A program made the position numbers and the translations under genes. A stretch of 35,192 bases of DNA, from positions 1 through 35,192 of IMG/VR virus record IMGVR_UViG_3300025711_000264; one strand, written 5' to 3'. How positions within the stretch are numbered: position 1 is the stretch's first letter; each line of letters opens with the position of its first letter. Under the pieces are notes generated by a model. That model worked only from the letters and a program-made list of their open reading frames with translations. It ran no database searches and was not told where the DNA came from. Source of the stretch: a virus. This document shows positions 2,618-34,387 of the stretch, in pieces.

Positions 2618-4371
2618 CAGTAGATCTCCATAATGCCGGTGTTGGCCACGGTCTGACCCTCCAGCGGCTCGTTGTGCAGTGCATGAAAGAGTGCCCACGC
2701 CAGATCAGCGTGGCCGGTGTTGTCGGTGCGTCCAGCGGTGTAGGTGAACTGCCGCCCGCCTGGGGTAACAGTCTTGCGGATGGCCATCAGCGATTGCGCC
2801 ACGTCCGTCCAACCGGCATCGAACTCCAGCCGCCCCTTGCTGATCACGTCCCAGGCCTTCATCACCAGACGGGTCTTGACCTCCGGGTTGTAGGAGAAGG
2901 TGCGCAACGCCGGGAAGAACGGACGCACCAGCTGCGCCACGGCACTGCCCAGCCCGGTCGTGTCGATCCCGATGTAGGTCACCCAATAGCGCAGCGTGAC
3001 CTGACGAATCGTCTCGGCCTGGGCGGTGAAGTCCATCCCTCGGAACTGGTGCCGCTCCAGGATCCTGAACTTTCCGCCCGGTACCAGCGGTGGCGCCACT
3101 ACGATGAGTCCGGCGGTGTCGCCCGTCTCAGCAGGGTCGTACCCCACCCAAACCTGCCGATCGGCAAAGGGTCTGGCCGCGAATGGCTTGTAGTCCTCCC
3201 AGACCGACCAGCTGTCCACCATGCAGGGCTGCAGCATGTTCAGCGGGAAGATGCTCGCGCCGTCGTCGACGAACTGGCACATCAACAGGTTCTGGAATGC
3301 CGCGGCGTCGTACTCCAGCCGCAATTCGTCGATGTCGAACAGGTCGCAGCCCCGCTCTTCCGCGTCCAGGATGGTGACAATCTGCCGCCAGATCCGGTCG
3401 TCGCAGAGCTTACCCTGCTGCAGCACGTCGTGGCTGACATCCAGTTTCAGGTGCTGGGCGCTGGGCTTGCCCTTGTTGAACCGTTCACCGGTCCAGAAGG
3501 TGTAGGCCTCATGCGCCATCGAGCTCGGCGTCGAGAAGTAGGTCCGGCGGTACAGTTTCTGCATCGCCATGCCGGACGCGACCTTGTTCAGTTCATTGAA
3601 CTTGAAGGTCCAGAAGAATTCGTCGAAGTAGAAGTTGCCGTGGTAGCCCTGGGCCGTCCTGGCGTTGGTGCCGAGGAAGTGCAGCTCGGCCCCGTTCGGC
3701 AGGATGATCGGATCACCGGTGAGCTCGACGCCTACCGTGTCCCGCGCGAACGCCTGGATGTAGGCCTTGAAGATATGCGCCTGGGCCTTGCTGGCCGACA
3801 GGAAAATCTGGTTGCGCCCGGTGGTCAACGCATCGATCAAGGCCTCGCGGGCAAAGTAGAAGGTTGCCCCGATCTGCCGGCTTTTCAGAATGGCGCGAGT
3901 GCGCTGATTGCCCGCCCGGTACCAGTCTTTCTGGTAGTCGAAGCACCCTTCTAGAAATGCCTCGACCAGCTTCTCGACCAGTTCCTCTGGGATGTCGTTG
4001 CGTTTGGGCTTACGCTTCTCCTCGGCGTTGCGCTTGGCCAGCTCAGGGTTGAGATCCGTCTCGGTGCCGCCCTCCTGGTAGCGCTGGATTCGGGCCTGAC
4101 GCTCCAGTTGCCGGTGGAGCAGGTCGATTTCCTTGAAATCCGCACCAGACTTGGGGTCCTTGAGGAGCAGCTGTACCAGGCGGGCTTCGGTAGCCGCCTG
4201 GATACGCTGCAGCGGTGTGGCCCGGTCCCATTCGTCGCGGGCCTTCCAGCTGTGAAGGGTCTTCTCCTTCTCGCCGATCAGCTCGGCGATCTCGCACACA
4301 CGGTAGCCCTGCCAATACAGGTGTTTGGCATGGCGGCGGTGATCGGTTGGCAATTCGCAGATAGCGTTCAT
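2617..4371 (-). CDS. P: Terminase large (ATPase) subunit (P2 gpP family)
   Basis: This is the DNA-packaging motor ATPase, 584 residues against about 590 in P2. Residues 20-50 form a helix-turn-helix segment (GYRVCEIAELIGE). SRQIGAT at 164-170 is the Walker A-like P-loop region and FYFDEFFW at 247-254 is the Walker B site, with D250 and E251. YDPAETGD at 411-418 begins the RNase H-like nuclease domain. The ATG at 4371 starts the leftward P-Q operon from the divergent promoter region it shares with O. It overlaps the portal start by one base. Confidence 0.94.
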   Translation of the reverse strand: MNAICELPTDHRRHAKHLYWQGYRVCEIAELIGEKEKTLHSWKARDEWDRATPLQRIQAATEARLVQLLLKDPKSGADFKEIDLLHRQLERQARIQRYQEGGTETDLNPELAKRNAEEKRKPKRNDIPEELVEKLVEAFLEGCFDYQKDWYRAGNQRTRAILKSRQIGATFYFAREALIDALTTGRNQIFLSASKAQAHIFKAYIQAFARDTVGVELTGDPIILPNGAELHFLGTNARTAQGYHGNFYFDEFFWTFKFNELNKVASGMAMQKLYRRTYFSTPSSMAHEAYTFWTGERFNKGKPSAQHLKLDVSHDVLQQGKLCDDRIWRQIVTILDAEERGCDLFDIDELRLEYDAAAFQNLLMCQFVDDGASIFPLNMLQPCMVDSWSVWEDYKPFAARPFADRQVWVGYDPAETGDTAGLIVVAPPLVPGGKFRILERHQFRGMDFTAQAETIRQVTLRYWVTYIGIDTTGLGSAVAQLVRPFFPALRTFSYNPEVKTRLVMKAWDVISKGRLEFDAGWTDVAQSLMAIRKTVTPGGRQFTYTAGRTDNTGHADLAWALFHALHNEPLEGQTVANTGIMEIY

Positions 4372-8752: not shown

Positions 8753-9594
8753 CCCTCACCCTGCGCCACGGCGACCGTGGCCAAACCGTCAGCCAACTGC
8801 AAAAGCAGCTCAACCAGGCCGGTGCCAAGCCTGCGCTGGTCGTCGACGCCGACTTCGGCGACGCCACGGAAAAGGCGGTGCGCGCCTTCCAGGCCAAAGT
8901 CGGCCTGGTCAACGACGGCATTGCCGGCAGCAAGACCCTGGCGGCCCTGACCGGTGCCGATTGCCGCCTGCTGCTGGGCAACGCCACCCTGGCGGCGGGC
9001 GCCGAGCGCCTGGGCGTCGAGCTGGCCTCGATCTATGCCGTCAACGAGCTAGAGAGCCACGGCCAAGGCTTCCTGGCCAACGGCAAGCCGAAAATCCTGT
9101 ACGAGCGGCATGTCATGTACCAGCGCTTGGCGATGCCACGCAACGAGGGTGACGACGTCGTCGAGCTGCAGCGCCATGCCGATGAACTGGCCACCGCCTA
9201 CCCGCAACTGGTCAACCCCCGCCCGGGTGGCTACATCGGCGGTACCGGCGAGCACCAGCGCCTGGCCCAGGCCCGTATGCTCGATGCCGACCGAGCCGCC
9301 GAGTCTGCGAGCTGGGGGGCTTTCCAGATCATGGGCTACCACTGGCCGCGTCTGGGCTATGCAAGCCTGGCTGACTTCGTCACCCGGATGCACCAGGACG
9401 AACGCGAACACTTCGAAGCCTTCGTCCGCTTCATTGAGTCGGATCCGGCGTTGCACAAGGCGCTCAAGGGCAAGAAGTGGGCGCAGTTCGCCAAGCTCTA
9501 CAACGGCCCGGCCTACGCCAAGAACCTCTACGACGTGAAGCTTGAACGCGCCTACGAACGGCACGCCACCTGCGGCTGCACCCTCGCCGCGTAA
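8749..9594 (+). CDS. Endolysin: N-acetylmuramidase with peptidoglycan-binding domain
   Basis: The protein (281 residues) cleaves cell-wall peptidoglycan at lysis. An N-terminal peptidoglycan-binding domain spans about residues 6-68 (GDRGQTVSQLQKQL to DGIAGSKTLAAL). A DUF3380-type N-acetylmuramidase domain follows to the C-terminus. E102 in NELESHG is the probable catalytic glutamate, and KILYERH and the SWGAFQIMGYHW segment are family hallmarks. No signal peptide is seen, so it should need the holin for export. It replaces the unrelated P2 gpK endolysin. Confidence 0.92.
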   Translation: MTLTLRHGDRGQTVSQLQKQLNQAGAKPALVVDADFGDATEKAVRAFQAKVGLVNDGIAGSKTLAALTGADCRLLLGNATLAAGAERLGVELASIYAVNELESHGQGFLANGKPKILYERHVMYQRLAMPRNEGDDVVELQRHADELATAYPQLVNPRPGGYIGGTGEHQRLAQARMLDADRAAESASWGAFQIMGYHWPRLGYASLADFVTRMHQDEREHFEAFVRFIESDPALHKALKGKKWAQFAKLYNGPAYAKNLYDVKLERAYERHATCGCTLAA

Positions 9595-23690: not shown

Positions 23691-25382
23691 TTATACAGCT
23701 GCCAACATTTCAGCAAGAATTGCCTGCCGCTTAAGTCTATCAGGTGATATCTCACCAAGCCCTTGGCAAATCTCTACAACCCTTGCATACGTCTCTGTTG
23801 CCTTCTGGCTGTGCTGCCCCATGACTTTAATAATCGCGTCCGCCTGCTGAAGCGCTTTTTTGGAATTGAGATTAACTTGATCCTTTCCACAAATTATCGC
23901 ACGCACCACCGGCAACATATGCCATTTCAGACGTTTCAGGTTCTGCGGAATAGTGCTATTGGAAACCAGCAGATTAAAACGATACATGGCAACACAAGAC
24001 GCATAAAAAACCGCCTCCTTAACATCATCAGCAAAGATCACATCCGTCAACTCATCATACATCTGCTTAGTATAACGAGAAGCCAGCTCAGGTCTATTGC
24101 AGAACATCGACGCAACGCACTTTGCAGTATTATGGAGGGTAAAAATTCTTGTAGCAGGAATATCCTGACCTACATACTGCCTATCACGCCGCTCTAGGTG
24201 AAGTCTACTTTCAGCCCCTTCATAAGTATTAAAATACTGCTCAACCCTCTTCACAATTGGTTTAAGAGAAAGGAACTGAGTGCCTTCAACCTTGCTCTGG
24301 CTATTTGTCGCCTTTACCAATTCTGAAAAAACGTCTTCAAGCTGAGTCTTAACCAGCTTAACGTTCACCATCACGTCATTCAATAGTTCTCTATTCTCAA
24401 AAAGAACGTTTGATGTCTGACACCCATTTACAATTTGGTAGTTTGTCAAATGCAGCGTGGTACCTTGCAGCTTTATTTCCGGACTAACAATCGTGATCCC
24501 ATTATTCAAAACAGGAAACCTACTTGCTGAGTCCGAGGCAAGCGTAGCCGCTATAGACTGGTTAACCGGATTATCCTGACCAAGGAAAGAGCGGACGTTC
24601 TCCTCGAAAACCTGTGAACGAAGATTACCATCCTCCGTCGTTAGCAAATTCGACACGAAATCCTGAGCCCTCACAACTGCAAGATATGCCTCATCAATGC
24701 CATTGATAATTGGAAGTGCTGCAATACTAAACGCAGGCAGACTTGCATTCACACTAGAATAAGTACTAACCCAAAGCCTAGTAAGCTCGTCACGATCAAT
24801 AAACTTCACGTCGATCTCATGAAACAACCCCAATCCTTCGAGCTGTACAACAAAATCCCGCAAAGCTGTTTCAAGCGCGTCTGGTTTTAGGTAAACGCCT
24901 GTTGTGATATAGCGCGCAATCAAAGATGGCTTACCATATCGAATTTTAGGAACTTCATTTAACGTAAGATCGAATATCTCTCGCGCATTAACAAGAACTG
25001 AATCCTCATTTGCATACGGAGTCTGAGAGGCAAATCTTAAAATCCCCTCCTTGAACTTTAAGAAATCACCAAGATCAAACGCCTCCGACCTTTTTGCCTG
25101 AACAAAAATTACGTCAACATCGTGATTTCTTTTCGGACCAGCAAATATGGCAGAACTATCGTCGACAGAAACCGCCACAGACTCATCAATTACAACAGCG
25201 ACGCCATCTATCCCTTCATCCCCTGGCCCTGTCGTAACATCATCAAGGTCAAATGCCGAAGCAAATCTATTTGAAAGAACACAGTAAGTAGAAAATTTTT
25301 CAAACTGAACAGATTGCTCTTCAGCATTCAACCCAAAGCTAGCAACAAAACTTTTAAGATGAGACTCTACAATCCTATGCAT
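23691..25382 (-). CDS. AIPR-family abortive infection protein
   Basis: This 563-residue protein belongs to the AIPR (abortive infection phage resistance) family. The family core is RFPVLNNGITIVSPEIKL followed by YQIVNGCQTSNVLFENR, about residues 281-328. The N-terminal part has a PD-(D/E)XK-like nuclease pattern: G57-I-D59-G60 followed by VIFVQAK with Q95 and K97. It is clearly more AT-rich than the phage genes, a sign of transfer. It starts 35 bases after the membrane protein in the leftward repressor block, with a GGGGTG ribosome binding site. Likely role: anti-phage defence in the lysogen, perhaps by nucleic acid cleavage. Confidence 0.85.
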   Translation of the reverse strand: MHRIVESHLKSFVASFGLNAEEQSVQFEKFSTYCVLSNRFASAFDLDDVTTGPGDEGIDGVAVVIDESVAVSVDDSSAIFAGPKRNHDVDVIFVQAKRSEAFDLGDFLKFKEGILRFASQTPYANEDSVLVNAREIFDLTLNEVPKIRYGKPSLIARYITTGVYLKPDALETALRDFVVQLEGLGLFHEIDVKFIDRDELTRLWVSTYSSVNASLPAFSIAALPIINGIDEAYLAVVRAQDFVSNLLTTEDGNLRSQVFEENVRSFLGQDNPVNQSIAATLASDSASRFPVLNNGITIVSPEIKLQGTTLHLTNYQIVNGCQTSNVLFENRELLNDVMVNVKLVKTQLEDVFSELVKATNSQSKVEGTQFLSLKPIVKRVEQYFNTYEGAESRLHLERRDRQYVGQDIPATRIFTLHNTAKCVASMFCNRPELASRYTKQMYDELTDVIFADDVKEAVFYASCVAMYRFNLLVSNSTIPQNLKRLKWHMLPVVRAIICGKDQVNLNSKKALQQADAIIKVMGQHSQKATETYARVVEICQGLGEISPDRLKRQAILAEMLAAV

Positions 25383-27434: not shown

Positions 27435-27724
27435 GCACTTACAAGCTCGTCTGCCCTCACTGCAACCAGCGCATGCGCATCCGTACCAGCGAAGGCACAC
27501 ACATTTTCCTTCGGGTGGCCTACCTGCAATGCACCAACGAGGCCTGCGGCTGGTCGGTACGCGCCCAGTTCGAAATGACCCACGAAATGAGCCCAAGCGG
27601 TATGGCCAACCCGGCCGTGCGGTTGCCGGTCGCTCCGGTAGTGATGCGTCGTCAGGCGATGAAGTCCGCCGAAGATCAGCCCGATTTGCTGGACCAACTG
27701 GACATGGAGGTAGCCACCGCATGA
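27431..27724 (+). CDS. ogr: Ogr/Delta-type zinc-finger late gene activator
   Basis: This 97-residue protein has cysteines C8, C11, C34 and C39, exactly the C-X2-C-X22-C-X4-C spacing of P2 Ogr and P4 Delta. Ogr binds zinc and activates late promoters through RNA polymerase alpha. The probable targets here are the three TGTA-N11-TACA dyads. In P2, ogr lies after D. Here it lies inside the early operon, between the CII-like gene and the replication genes. Start GTG at 27431, coupled to the previous stop. Confidence 0.9.
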   Translation: MSTYKLVCPHCNQRMRIRTSEGTHIFLRVAYLQCTNEACGWSVRAQFEMTHEMSPSGMANPAVRLPVAPVVMRRQAMKSAEDQPDLLDQLDMEVATA

Positions 27725-28095
27725 ATACCGCAGCCCTGACCTTGAATCCTGAAACCGACTACCGCGCTGCAATGCAGCAGGCGGCCGTGGCCTTCCTGTT
27801 CCGCCGGGAGGGCTTGCATCTCGCCGGCGACCAGCAAGTGCTGGAGAACTGCGCTCAATACCTGTGCCAGTCGCTTGAAGTCCCTGAGCACCTGGTGCAG
27901 CGCATCGCCGAGATGGCGGTCGCCGAGTTCGAAAGCAAAACCACTGGCCGCCTGCGCCTGCTGGGGGTGTGCCCCACAAGCGGGATCTTCCGGGCACGGC
28001 TGATCCTGCTCGATACCGCCACCCAAGAGCGGTACCAGGTGCCAGCGCGCCACCTGCCTCGACGCATGCGGCAACCTCACCACACCTCGAAGTAA
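27721..28095 (+). CDS. Unknown early-operon protein
   Basis: This 124-residue protein starts at an ATG that overlaps the Ogr stop as ATGA. The first half is helical (AAMQQAAVAFLFRREGLHLAG). The second half is strand-rich and basic (LRLLGVCPTSGIFRARLILL, RYQVPARHLPRRMRQ). No domain is recognised. The coupled overlap and typical phage codon use make it a real gene. Confidence 0.72.
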   Translation: MNTAALTLNPETDYRAAMQQAAVAFLFRREGLHLAGDQQVLENCAQYLCQSLEVPEHLVQRIAEMAVAEFESKTTGRLRLLGVCPTSGIFRARLILLDTATQERYQVPARHLPRRMRQPHHTSK

Positions 28096-28166: not shown

Positions 28167-28412
28167 ATGAGCAAGATCACCCTCCAACTGAAGCTGAACG
28201 AGCAGCAGGCGAAGCACTACCTGCAGTGGCTCAACAGCCAGTACGACACCACCATGGCCGAAGTCTGGTACTCCGATCGCTATCGCCATGTACCCAGTGG
28301 CGAGCGCGGCCCTATGGTCCTGCTCGACCTTCCGCACCTTGCTGGTATCTGCCGTACGCGCAGCGAGCTGAAGAAGCAGCTCGACGCCTGCGCGACGGAG
28401 CGTGTCCAGTGA
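28167..28412 (+). CDS. Small unknown protein upstream of the primase
   Basis: This 81-residue protein starts at the ATG at 28167 (MSKITLQLKLNEQQAKHYLQ). It has a helical N-terminus, a central strand region (EVWYSDRYRHVPSGERGPMV) and a helical C-terminus. Its TGA overlaps the GTG start of the primase. An upstream ATG at 28116 is in frame but would start inside a hairpin. No domain is recognised. Confidence 0.7.
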   Translation: MSKITLQLKLNEQQAKHYLQWLNSQYDTTMAEVWYSDRYRHVPSGERGPMVLLDLPHLAGICRTRSELKKQLDACATERVQ

Positions 28413-31150
28413 ACCACAAGCCCATGGAACACCAGCTGCGCAGTGAAGTGCTGCGACGCCTGCAGGATCAGTACGGGCTGAAGCCCCGGGCCGGCACGCA
28501 GTACCTGCGCCAGGGCACCTGCCCGAGTTGCGGAAAAAAGGAGCTGTACTCGCGCCAGGACGAGCCCTGGTTTATCAAATGTGGTCGCGAGAGCAAGTGT
28601 GGCGAGCAATGGCACGTCAAAGAGCTGTTCGACGACCTGTTCGACGACTACAGCAAGCGCTATCCGACCACACAGGACGCTCCCCGGGCCTCTGCCGATG
28701 CCTATCTACAGTTCGCCCGCGGATTCGACCTGGGTCTCGTCAAGGGGTGGTACACCCAAGAAAACTACTGGGACCGTGAGCAGAGCATCGGCAGTGCGAC
28801 GGTGCGCTTTGCCCTGGAAAAAGGCGGCTACTGGGAGCGCCTGATCGACCAACCACACCGGTTCGGCAAGAAGAAAGCGCGATTCGCCCCAGGTCAATCG
28901 CCCAAAGGCTACTGGTGGTGCCCGCCCAGCATGGACCTGCTGGAGGTCCAGGAACTGTGGATCGTCGAGGGCATCTTCGATGCCATCGCCTTGCTGCACA
29001 ATGGCCTTGATGCCGTGGCCGCGATGAGTTCGGGCGCATTCCCTTTCGAATCGCTCAAGGCACTGGCCAAGTCATGCACCGACGCTGGGAAAAAGCTGCC
29101 TACGTTGGTCTGGGGATTGGACAACGAACCCGGCGCCCACTACTTCACCCGCAAGCACACCAACCTTGCTCGCGAGCTCGGCTACAAGTGCGAGGCCGCG
29201 CAAATTCCGCAACGTGGCCGCAAGGTCGACTGGAACGACCTGCATCAACGCTGGGCTTTCGTCGACGATACCGCCAAGCGACTGGACCAGGTTGATCGTG
29301 ACATTCGTGAGGCCCGTCACCACGGCGGCCTGCTGCTGGCCGAATCCGCTGCCGAGAAAGGCGCGCTGATGTATGAATGGCGCGAGCGCCATGAGTTTCA
29401 CTTCACGTTCGAGAACCGCCTCTACTGGTTCAAGATGGATCTGGACAAGTTCAACAAGTCCATGCAGCACCTGGAGGAATCCGAGCGCCACGAAGACGTG
29501 TTGCTCAACGACAAGCAGCGCCGCGACAAGGCCCTGCGCCAGTGCGGCGCAGTGGTGGAGATCGCCAACTGCAACCCGCAGGCCCTGTACTTCCAGCGCA
29601 ATGAAGTGACGGACGAGTCCTGGTACTACTTCCGCGTCGACTTTCCGCACGACGAGCCGAGTGTCCTGAACACCTTCACCGGTGGTCAGGTGGCCGCTGC
29701 CAGCGAGTTCAAGAAGCGCCTTCTCGGCATGGCAGCGGGTGCCGTGTTCACCGGCACCGGCTCGCAGCTCGATCGCATCATGCAGAACCAGCTGTTCGGG
29801 CTGAAGACGGTGAAAACCATCGACTACATCGGCTACAGCAAAGAGCACGGATGCTACGTGTTCGGTGACCTGGCCGTGCGCGGCGGGGTGCTGGAACAGG
29901 CCAACGCCGAGGACTACTTCGAGTTCAAGGGCCTGCGCCTGAAGTCGCTGCAAAAGTCGATCAAGCTGGAGATCAACCGGGATGCCTCTGCGTATCAGAC
30001 CGAGTGGTTTAACTGGCTGTGGACCTGTTTCAACACCCAGGGTGTGATCGCGCTGGTCTTCTGGTTCGGCTCGCTATTCGCCGAGCAGATCCGCGCCGAG
30101 TTCCAGTCCTTCCCCTTCCTGGAAGTGACCGGTGAGGCCGGTGCCGGTAAGTCCACCCTGCTGATGTTCCTGTGGAAACTGCTCGGCCGCCAGGACGAGG
30201 AAGGCGACGACCCGATCAAGATGACCAAGGCAGGCCTGCGCCGCTGGCTGAGCCAAACCGCCGGCATGCCCATCGTCATGCTGGAAGCCGACCGCAGCGA
30301 TGCCGAGGGTTCAGCGGGCAAGGCGTTTGACTTCGACCAGTTCAAACCGTTGTTCAACGGTCGCGGCCTTGGCCTCACCGGCGTGAAGAACGGCGGCAAC
30401 GACACCAACGCCCCCCCCTTTCGCGCAACCATGGTGTTCAGCCAGAACGCCAGCGTGGTGGCATCCGAGGCGATCCTCACCCGTATCGTGAAACTGCATT
30501 TTGTTCGCCCGGAGGTCACCAGCAACAGTCGCGCCGCAGCCGACAACCTCAACCACCTGCAGGCCAGTGAAGTCAGTCAATTACTGCTGATGGCGGCCAA
30601 GGCCGAGCAGCAGGTCATGGAGACGTTTCGCAAGCAGGTCAAGGTGCATGAACAGACCCTGCGGGAGCTGCGCGAAATCCGCATCGAGCGCCTCATCAAA
30701 AATCACGCCCAGCTCATGGCCCTGGTCGATGCGCTGCGGGAAATCGTGCCGATGAGCGATCGCCAGCACGCGGCCGTGCAGCGTGAGCTGACCTGCATGG
30801 CCATCGCCCGCCAACACGATGTGAACGCGGATCCGAAGGAAGTGGCCGAGTTCTGGGAGGTGTTCGAGTACCTGGAATCGCTCAGTGATGAACCTGTGGT
30901 CAACCACAGCAAAAAAGACGACCTGGTCGCCATCAACCTCAACGACTTCTGCGAACGCGCCGCCGAGCACAAGCAAAAGCTGGCCGATGTGGCCACCTTG
31001 CGCACCCTGCTACGCAACAGCCGGTCGCGGCCGTTCATTGAAAGCAATCGCGCCGTCGACAGCGCCGTGCGCGCCGCCTTCAACAACCGCAACAACGCTG
31101 CGAATCAGCGCAGCACCACAGTGAAGTGCTGGACCTTCAAGGCCAGCTGA
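28409..31150 (+). CDS. Primase-helicase replication protein (zinc finger, Toprim, P-loop ATPase)
   Basis: This 913-residue protein is the likely replication initiator. A zinc finger of the primase type holds C38, C41, C58 and C64. A Toprim-like domain follows (LWIVEGIFDAIALLHNGLDA, with E187, and D238 in WGLDNEPG). The C-terminal half is an SF3/DUF927-like ATPase with Walker A GEAGAGKST at 575-583. The architecture is like P4 alpha-type primase-helicases and differs from the rolling-circle gpA of P2. The frame is open back to 28130, but the GTG at 28409 overlaps the preceding stop; an ATG at 28424 is the alternative. Confidence 0.88.
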   Translation: MNHKPMEHQLRSEVLRRLQDQYGLKPRAGTQYLRQGTCPSCGKKELYSRQDEPWFIKCGRESKCGEQWHVKELFDDLFDDYSKRYPTTQDAPRASADAYLQFARGFDLGLVKGWYTQENYWDREQSIGSATVRFALEKGGYWERLIDQPHRFGKKKARFAPGQSPKGYWWCPPSMDLLEVQELWIVEGIFDAIALLHNGLDAVAAMSSGAFPFESLKALAKSCTDAGKKLPTLVWGLDNEPGAHYFTRKHTNLARELGYKCEAAQIPQRGRKVDWNDLHQRWAFVDDTAKRLDQVDRDIREARHHGGLLLAESAAEKGALMYEWRERHEFHFTFENRLYWFKMDLDKFNKSMQHLEESERHEDVLLNDKQRRDKALRQCGAVVEIANCNPQALYFQRNEVTDESWYYFRVDFPHDEPSVLNTFTGGQVAAASEFKKRLLGMAAGAVFTGTGSQLDRIMQNQLFGLKTVKTIDYIGYSKEHGCYVFGDLAVRGGVLEQANAEDYFEFKGLRLKSLQKSIKLEINRDASAYQTEWFNWLWTCFNTQGVIALVFWFGSLFAEQIRAEFQSFPFLEVTGEAGAGKSTLLMFLWKLLGRQDEEGDDPIKMTKAGLRRWLSQTAGMPIVMLEADRSDAEGSAGKAFDFDQFKPLFNGRGLGLTGVKNGGNDTNAPPFRATMVFSQNASVVASEAILTRIVKLHFVRPEVTSNSRAAADNLNHLQASEVSQLLLMAAKAEQQVMETFRKQVKVHEQTLRELREIRIERLIKNHAQLMALVDALREIVPMSDRQHAAVQRELTCMAIARQHDVNADPKEVAEFWEVFEYLESLSDEPVVNHSKKDDLVAINLNDFCERAAEHKQKLADVATLRTLLRNSRSRPFIESNRAVDSAVRAAFNNRNNAANQRSTTVKCWTFKAS

Positions 31151-31153
31151 CCC

Positions 31154-31179
31154 TACCCGGGCGCGGCAACGCCCGGGTA
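31154..31179 (+). promoter_or_regulatory. CGGCAA-loop hairpin 1
   Basis: TACCCGGGCG at 31154-31163 pairs perfectly with CGCCCGGGTA at 31170-31179 around the loop CGGCAA (31164-31169). It lies three bases after the primase stop and is followed by AAGGAG and the next ATG at 31201. There is no T run, so it is unlikely to be an intrinsic terminator. Two further hairpins with the same loop precede the next two genes. Confidence 0.75.
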
Positions 31180-31200
31180 TCGACCCCAAGGAGAAGCACC

Positions 31201-31344
31201 ATGCGCAATGAAGACCATGACGAGCTGTACCACCCCAGTCGGCGCGAAACGCTGACCACTTTGGTGGCCAGCGGATTGACTTTGGCCCTGCTGGCTGCGG
31301 TTGGCTATGCCGTACCAGATCTGCTGACCACCCTGCTCCATTGA
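31201..31344 (+). CDS. Small single-pass membrane protein, unknown
   Basis: This 47-residue protein has a charged N-terminus (RNEDHDELYHPSRRETL) and one hydrophobic segment at about 21-42 (LVASGLTLALLAAVGYAVPDL). AAGGAG lies eight bases before the ATG at 31201, which decides the start although the frame is open from 31126. It follows hairpin 1. Function unknown. Confidence 0.7.
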   Translation: MRNEDHDELYHPSRRETLTTLVASGLTLALLAAVGYAVPDLLTTLLH

Positions 31345-31351
31345 CCTACTG

Positions 31352-31373
31352 CCCAGGCTCGGCAACGCCTGGG
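31352..31373 (+). promoter_or_regulatory. CGGCAA-loop hairpin 2
   Basis: CCCAGGC at 31352-31358 pairs with GCCTGGG at 31367-31373. The eight-base loop TCGGCAAC contains the same CGGCAA (31360-31365). It lies seven bases after the preceding stop and is followed by GAGGAG and the ATG at 31392. The stem differs in sequence from hairpin 1, while the loop is kept. Confidence 0.72.
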
Positions 31374-31391
31374 AATCCGAGGAGAAGCTCC

Positions 31392-31754
31392 ATGAACGAT
31401 CAACTCGCTGAGAATCTGGAATTGCTATTCGCCTTTGAAGACTGGGCTACGCCACGTGGCTACGACATGTCACGCGGCGCCTCTGAATTCCAGAACCTGG
31501 AAACCCGCAACGCTTGGCTCGGTTTTGAGGCTGCGCACGGTCCAGACGGCTGCCGCCCTGTCGGGCAACAGCTTTATGCCCTGATCAAGAAAAACAGCGA
31601 GTACGCCCACCAGACCGACAAGTTGTTCCCGGTCCTGGTCGGCAAACCACCCTACGACGACTTCTTCGTCCACGGCGGCCCAGGTGGCCTGTACCGCCTG
31701 CGAGATGTGGATTTCTACGTGATCGAGGACGGCAAACAGTACCGCCTCAGCTGA
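31392..31754 (+). CDS. Unknown early-region protein
   Basis: This is a 120-residue soluble, mixed alpha/beta protein (LAENLELLFAFEDWATPRGYD is its first segment by pattern, about 5-25, followed by NAWLGFEAAHGPD). The C-terminus is RLRDVDFYVIEDGKQYRLS. No domain is recognised. The GAGGAG before the ATG at 31392 sets the start. It follows hairpin 2. Confidence 0.72.
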   Translation: MNDQLAENLELLFAFEDWATPRGYDMSRGASEFQNLETRNAWLGFEAAHGPDGCRPVGQQLYALIKKNSEYAHQTDKLFPVLVGKPPYDDFFVHGGPGGLYRLRDVDFYVIEDGKQYRLS

Positions 31755-31776
31755 CACCGGCCAGGCCGGAAAAAGA

Positions 31777-31808
31777 AGGTGCTGGGGAGCGGCAACTCAC
31801 CAGCACCT
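31777..31808 (+). promoter_or_regulatory. CGGCAA-loop hairpin 3
   Basis: AGGTGCTGG at 31777-31785 pairs with CCAGCACCT at 31800-31808. After one G-A mismatch, GAG at 31787-31789 pairs with CTC at 31796-31798, closing the loop CGGCAA (31790-31795). AAGGAG and the ATG at 31832 follow. The stem has nothing in common with hairpins 1 and 2, yet the loop is identical. Confidence 0.75.
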
Positions 31809-31831
31809 GACCAACCCCAAGGAGAAGCACC

Positions 31832-32068
31832 ATGCAAGTACAAACCCAAGAAGTCAGCGACATGAAGGCTACCACAGGGAGGCGCCCGAGGCTGGCAAGC
31901 CATTCACTTGACCTGCCTAACCACTGCGATATCTGCAACAGAGCACGTTCCCACGGTAGCCATCAGCGCTGCAGCAAAATTCGCCAGCAGCGCAAGTCGC
32001 TGGAGTGGGAAGCCTACATGGCAAACGTCGAAGCAAAGCGCACCCAGAAGGCACGCCGCCATGCTTGA
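31832..32068 (+). CDS. Small putative zinc-binding protein
   Basis: This 78-residue basic protein has C32, C35, H41 or H44, and C47 in HCDICNRARSHGSHQRC, which could bind zinc. The rest is charged and helical (KIRQQRKSLEWEAYMANVEA). AAGGAG precedes the ATG at 31832. It follows hairpin 3 and overlaps the next gene by eight bases. Possibly nucleic acid-binding; function unknown. Confidence 0.68.
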   Translation: MQVQTQEVSDMKATTGRRPRLASHSLDLPNHCDICNRARSHGSHQRCSKIRQQRKSLEWEAYMANVEAKRTQKARRHA

Positions 32069-34299: not shown

Positions 34300-34344
34300 T
34301 GGCGGAAGCGTAGAGATTCGAACTCTAGGATAGTTGCCCATCGA
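34300..34344. other. attR: Probable attR, 3' part of the tRNA-Ser gene
   Basis: The integrase gene lies directly before the 3' end of the tRNA gene, where P2-like and other phages commonly insert and restore the tRNA. The core identical to attL would lie within the 3' half of the tRNA. No second copy is present in the window, so attL must be left of position 1 and the exact core cannot be fixed. Confidence 0.6.
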
Positions 34345-34387
34345 CGGTTTTCAAGACCGTTGCCTTAAACCACTCGGCCACGCTTCC
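34300..34387 (-). tRNA. tRNA-Ser (anticodon UGA)
   Basis: On the minus strand GGAAGCG at 34387-34381 pairs with CGCTTCC at 34310-34304, forming the acceptor stem, and CCA is encoded at 34302-34300. The anticodon loop CTTGAAA gives UGA at 34353-34351, reading UCA codons. The T arm holds GTTCGAATC, and a long variable arm, as in all serine tRNAs, gives 88 bases with CCA. Confidence 0.95.

Follow-up and report, generated by a model that had tools for sequence, protein, structure and literature searches.

Hairpins with a genome-wide loop allele precede start codons in P2-like Pseudomonas phages and may serve as translational operators

Results

Genes and hairpins at the locus

The DNA analysed here (the window) is a virus record of 35,192 bases from a P2-like Pseudomonas phage. 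Its capsid and primase regions are matched by the Pseudomonas phages Dobby, Sirocco (Peduoviridae, Citexvirus) and vB_PaeM-D14A. Three hairpins are located in the interval from the primase to the integrase gene, each 3' of a stop codon (of the primase, a 47-aa gene and a 120-aa gene, respectively). The features are listed below; the hairpins were assigned from the sequence, RNA folding and a covariance model, for which the E-value is given.

27721–28095, plus strand: gene for a 124-aa protein (phrog_3461)
28167–28412, plus strand: gene for an 81-aa helical protein (phrog_3967)
28409–31150, plus strand: primase with a Toprim-like domain (phrog_1139), a candidate reader of the hairpins
31154–31179, plus strand: hairpin 1, 10-bp stem (31154–31163 / 31170–31179), loop CGGCAA at 31164–31169 (E 2.2e-5)
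31188–31205, plus strand: start-associated sequence 1, AAGGAGAAGCACCATGCG, start codon at 31201
31201–31344, plus strand: 47-aa gene downstream of hairpin 1 (phrog_21697), product with a hydrophobic C-terminal half
31352–31373, plus strand: hairpin 2, 7-bp stem (31352–31358 / 31367–31373), CGGCAA at 31360–31365 (E 0.01)
31379–31396, plus strand: start-associated sequence 2, degraded, GAGGAGAAGCTCCATGAA, start codon at 31392
31392–31754, plus strand: 120-aa gene downstream of hairpin 2 (phrog_18597)
31777–31808, plus strand: hairpin 3, 12-bp stem with one G.A mismatch, loop CGGCAA at 31790–31795 (E 0.005)
31819–31836, plus strand: start-associated sequence 3, AAGGAGAAGCACCATGCA, start codon at 31832
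31832–32068, plus strand: 78-aa gene downstream of hairpin 3 (phrog_10699), product basic and containing Cys and His

Elsewhere in the window, the prophage encodes an AIPR (abortive infection phage resistance) family protein (23691–25382, minus strand, E 6e-44), and a tRNA gene (34303–34387, minus strand) adjoins the integrase and is the likely attachment site. This tRNA was the sole match at the curated gathering score when the window was searched with Rfam 15; no family matched the hairpins at that score, and only weak sub-threshold matches were seen there. A second small perfect inverted repeat without a T run, CCGGCCAGGCCGG at 31757–31769, lies between the stop codon of the 120-aa gene and hairpin 3.

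Structure of the three hairpins

Hairpin 1 (TACCCGGGCG-CGGCAA-CGCCCGGGTA) begins 4 nt 3' of the primase stop codon, and hairpin 3 reads AGGTGCTGG(G)GAG-CGGCAA-CTC(A)CCAGCACCT. In hairpin 2 (CCCAGGC-TCGGCAAC-GCCTGGG) the closing G is replaced by T, so that CGGCAA lies within an 8-nt loop. Because the closing G-C pair is lost and the loop at this position is CCGCAA in a close relative (L124), hairpin 2 is probably a decaying copy. A preliminary description of this DNA had reported the positions of the hairpins and their shared CGGCAA loops; both were confirmed in the sequence, and RNA folding yields all three structures. The folding z-scores were moderate (−1.6 to −2.2), and a single copy alone would therefore prove little. 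The stems had been described as completely different. This holds for stem 3, which is unrelated to the others, but stems 1 and 2 (CCCGGGC/GCCCGGG and CCCAGGC/GCCTGGG) are related by one compensatory change. The view that the hairpins are not ordinary terminators was upheld: none is among the terminator-like sites of the window, T runs are absent, and 122 of 140 relatives have 0–1 T within the 8 nt 3' of the stem.

Allowing up to 3 mismatches, the start-associated sequence AAGGAGAAGCACCATGCA occurs at exactly 3 sites in the window (0.02 expected), each directly 3' of one of these hairpins. A chance origin of the trio was rejected on this count, on scans made without prior knowledge of the loop and on the ranks given by the covariance model. 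The Shine-Dalgarno sequence is outside the hairpin. Folding predicts short, weak extra pairing in the window copies (strongest, a 4-bp mini-hairpin at copy 2), so that accessibility of the Shine-Dalgarno sequence is not certain.

The hairpins belong to a widespread element

The three hairpins are members of a widespread RNA element of P2-like Pseudomonas phages (Citexvirus-like, with the phrog_1139 primase). The element consists of a covarying stem of 6–12 bp, a closing G-C pair and a hexaloop C-G/U-G-C-A-A, followed by C. The start codon lies inside AAGGAGAAGCACCATGCA, usually 16–26 nt 3' of the hairpin; from stem end to start codon the distance ranges over 13–36 nt (mode 22–23). The conserved start sequence extends to ATGCA, since 183 of 255 downstream proteins begin with MQ and 29 with MH. 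The expectation that related phages would carry the pattern in front of their genes was borne out by hundreds of copies, on the coding strand and before start codons; each phage has 2–5 copies, every one before a different gene, and the genes 3' of them belong to many unrelated families.

The pattern CGGCAAC + 4–30 nt + AAGGAGAAGCACCATG was found in at least 119 stretches of the viral collection, with as many as 4 copies on one contig (redundancy among the viral contigs was reduced only roughly), and in 30 stretches of bacterial genomes, of which 24 are titled Pseudomonas or Stutzerimonas. As this search presumes the loop, three independent sets of loci were used, with stem thresholds and required start patterns being our own settings. 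In set (a), 78 loci retrieved by the primase protein were scanned for any hairpin before any ribosome-binding site. CTGCAA (18 of 72) and CGGCAA (13 of 72) were the most frequent loops, the next best occurring 3 times; the reverse strand and the reversed sequence gave no comparable loop peak. Loops recurring within one locus of the primase-anchored set were CTGCAA (14 loci), CGGCAA (9) and CTGCCA (1), plus one chance loop. Set (b) was retrieved only by the start sequence AAAGGAGAAGCACCATGCA and comprised 147 sites, 120 of which had hairpins (111 with hexaloops: CTGCAA 104, CGGCAA 3, CGCCAA 2). For set (c), 300 Pseudomonas genomes were searched with loop position 2 left free; 30 matched, mostly in prophage-like clusters, as against 0 in the reversed control. 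A host repeat of the REP type was rejected on this result and because the best matches of the covariance model in host genomes are mostly these elements.

At the hairpin-3 position (window 31777–31880 and homologous sites in many loci) the downstream gene starts with a conserved leader of ~15 codons (MQAQTPEVSAEKATT, MQVNQPKEGGAELNP and similar). This is a cargo position with a constant start module, whose leader is fused to many unrelated protein families across phages; other phages have unrelated genes in the slot of the 78-aa gene. Hairpin and start sequence are separable: in seven loci (L189, L190, L191, L193, L196, L198 and L200) a start sequence of this type, AAGGAGAGACACCATGCA or AAGGAGAAACGCCATGCA, is present directly 3' of the primase, and the hairpin is absent. 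Six others (L158, L164, L165, L166, L169 and L186) have at the hairpin-1 place a hairpin with a different, variable loop (CTGTAG, CTACAG, CCACGG, CCGTAG, CCATGG), and these may be another class. On the minus strand of L033 (~3280–3370) one hairpin with its flank is tandemly duplicated before a single start site. A pre-gene hairpin in L201 (~9300–9340) has the mRNA-strand loop TTGCAG, the reverse complement of CTGCAA, as if inverted.

Covariation of the stems

Base pairing was assessed in contexts collected without regard to the stem (167 with CGGCAA, 97 with CTGCAA). The closing pair was G-C in 158 and 96 of these, respectively. The Watson-Crick fraction of pairs 2–6 was 0.75–0.92 for CGGCAA (shuffled means 0.37–0.74) and 0.69–0.94 for CTGCAA (shuffled means 0.36–0.82), with three or four pair types at each of these pairs in both sets. 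Loop and closing pair are constant while the stems vary. In 47 diverse copies, which we chose as being in register, 89.1% of the cells were paired, compared with 64.2% after shuffling and at most 45.6% after sliding, and the covariation score was 0.588 (0.150 shuffled). The preliminary description had proposed a selected RNA structure, and this proposal holds when tested by stem covariation around a fixed loop. A DNA operator palindrome was rejected, as the arms vary and the loop is fixed.

A covariance model was built from the 47 copies, with those of the window excluded. On the 35-kb window its best matches were the three hairpins (E-values of 2.2e-5, 0.005 and 0.01; next 0.74). It also recovered the two copies of Sirocco and copies of other phages, picked mostly prophage copies in six host genomes, and gave no match in six control loci thought to be without the element.

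Loop alleles and their switches

Within a genome the loop is nearly always uniform. In 99 non-redundant multi-copy clusters (255 copies), 62 had only CGGCAA, 32 only CTGCAA and 1 only CTGCCA, making 95 uniform; the other 4 hold one single-base variant, and none of the 99 mixes CGGCAA with CTGCAA; a previous tally gave the same picture. L380 has two copies with the loop CGCCAA, and L306 and L405 have one each; CGTCAA is a further rare loop. Strict selection does not act on every copy, since the loop or the closing pair is altered in hairpin 2 and in a few others. Seven identical 7+7 stems were found with both loops, and orthologous genes bear the loop of their own genome.

The primase tree requires 6 or more changes of allele (the starred branches force 6); 5–8 changes were counted on trees of six other genes in the region and 10 with an enlarged primase set, all of these counts depending on single-gene trees. 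Prophages that are all-CGGCAA and all-CTGCAA are both present in the genus Pseudomonas, also in close hosts. On a gyrB tree of 26 hosts (rows G001 and G005 left out) the alleles are partly clustered by host lineage, yet differ between close relatives, which makes a host-encoded reader of the loop less likely. Gene conversion does not explain the pattern, because the loop is homogenised within a genome and the stems are not. Block transfer of the whole region is disfavoured, since it predicts a single split by allele in the linked gene trees, contrary to what these show. Uniform loops on varied stems are explained by a reader common to all sites, and a phage-specific, loop-reading trans factor fits the coherence of the loops better than gene conversion or host control.

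Discussion

A two-part start module

The element is most likely a translational operator module. We consider it fairly probable, judging from sequence comparison, that the hairpins are cis-acting RNA operators in an early polycistronic mRNA and that a phage-specific trans factor reads them to control the early genes together. The module would comprise the hairpin with its CGGCAA or CTGCAA hexaloop and the near-constant ribosome-binding and start sequence. We infer a factor that is probably a phage-encoded protein and would read the loop at all 2–5 copies, so that a single factor could govern the early gene set jointly. Its binding would most likely block initiation, giving timed repression, as the DNA polymerase of T4/RB69 does at its own operator hairpin. 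Blocked initiation is favoured because the Shine-Dalgarno sequence is strong and not part of the hairpin, which ends close to the 5' boundary of the 30S footprint; the direction of control is thus probably repression. The idea of a binding element for an RNA-binding protein, raised in the preliminary description, gains support from the genome-wide loop allele, with the mechanism being a proposal drawn from sequence.

More tentatively, the loop may be a specificity code. Each P2-like Pseudomonas phage would then run a post-transcriptional regulon of early genes through one allele (CGGCAA, CTGCAA, CTGCCA or CGCCAA) read by a co-evolving phage factor, co-resident prophages would not cross-regulate each other, and all sites would switch together with the reader.

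Alternative explanations

An mRNA processing or stability function, which the preliminary description had offered as another reading, appears unlikely. The hairpins would mark cistron boundaries and shield RNA ends after cleavage; the early mRNA of phage T7 has intergenic RNase III sites. Stable stem-loops without T runs, each following one stop codon and preceding the next start codon of an operon-like series of genes, agree with such a function. End protection, however, requires a stable stem and not an invariant hexaloop, the genome-wide loop allele is not predicted, and the stems are short for RNase III.

We regard boxB-like antitermination sites, at which an N-like phage protein would read the hairpin in nascent RNA and modify RNA polymerase, as quite improbable. 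The lambdoid N/boxB systems use small hairpins with a loop, and a protein, specific to each phage group, and phage-specific loop alleles are found here too. N/boxB acts on transcription and has boxA near promoters, whereas the present copies precede individual start codons, away from any promoter, and are without a boxA-like sequence (CGCTCTTTA with up to 1 mismatch has one match in the window, at 24585, and none near the hairpins). There is no excess of terminators downstream.

Little probability, again, attaches to an exchange module acting at the DNA level, in which the repeated hairpin, start sequence and first codons provide short homology for cargo swaps and are conserved through recombination. 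The constant 5' module with its ~15 shared codons, joined to so many unrelated families at the hairpin-3 position, is what such swapping would produce. Recombination would homogenise stem and loop alike, however, and the stems differ within a genome and covary while the loop is uniform. Cargo exchange at the DNA level may be a by-product.

It is very improbable that the hairpins act as single-stranded DNA structures at which the phage primase would prime or be loaded. The phrog_1139 primase adjoins the elements and is the only gene family present in all 40 genomes compared. Of the 231 loci with the element, 209 encode this primase, and in the remaining 22 the sequence available upstream is short, at 4.5 kb or less. 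The association is weaker than it appears because the sets were partly chosen by primase, several being anchored on it. Against priming sites, the element lies on the coding strand and is coupled to a start codon with its ribosome-binding site, primases of up to 0.90 normalised similarity accompany different alleles, and none of the primase segments screened separates the alleles.

Candidate readers of the loop

The primase, as the one family shared by all 40 genomes, is a candidate reader, and an Ogr-like protein is a further candidate. The best allele clustering was given by phrog_3967 (5 switches against 17.0 at random), whose predicted structure is a confident all-helical bundle (pLDDT 92.5) with no significant match in the PDB; this family is missing from four element-bearing phages (L159, L180, L187 and L405). 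The best single allele-separating column was in phrog_3461 (2/51 errors), being the best of many columns in a gene that is not universal. Pairing of a trans RNA with the loop was rejected, because the two allele groups have TTGCCG- or TTGCAG-looped hairpins at similar frequency once the palindromes themselves are allowed for.

Relation to known systems

In phage Mu, the small Com protein acts on a hairpin of the mom mRNA and sets its translation. There, a single target is controlled and the start site is concealed by the hairpin, whereas here the targets are many and the ribosome-binding site is outside the hairpin. The nearest analogue by layout is SAS/ESAS of the cluster K mycobacteriophages; these temperate phages each have it many times, in front of non-structural genes from various families (Pope et al. 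2011, PMC3203893). The ESAS is an inverted repeat just 5' of a conserved ribosome-binding start sequence and has lineage-specific versions (PMC3203893). Multiple copies, a start sequence with an upstream inverted repeat, varied downstream genes and lineage-specific versions are thus shared. The 17-bp inverted repeats of ESAS have a conserved arm sequence that does not support RNA pairing, for which reason its authors favour DNA-binding sites (PMC3203893); here, in contrast, a fixed loop is flanked by variable, covarying arms. For the 13-bp SAS GGGATAGGAGCCC, the window has a single match with 2 mismatches, which is not near the hairpins and is expected by chance.

In the T4/RB69 gp43 operator a replication enzyme, the DNA polymerase, reads hairpin loop bases at a ribosome-binding site, and the loops differ between phages (PMC3014915). 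The present element likewise places a conserved hairpin, whose loop bases are fixed, beside a ribosome-binding site. The gp43 operator is one autoregulatory site before one gene, whereas the present element has 2–5 sites before unrelated genes and a putative reader. The element is apparently undescribed so far: no description was found in the open-access literature, and earlier notice in subscription papers is possible.

Significance for the phages

Most of what is known about translational control by phages comes from single operators of model coliphages, and the present element would be a natural family of multi-site RNA operators, occurring in a common group of Pseudomonas prophages. Hundreds of natural variants separate loop from stem and at least 6 natural loop switches are available, so that co-evolution of loop and reader is directly testable. 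The element would also offer small orthogonal RNA tags for Pseudomonas. In the phages themselves, it points to the genes that may be under joint control, and to a site where cargo is swapped downstream of an unvarying start module.
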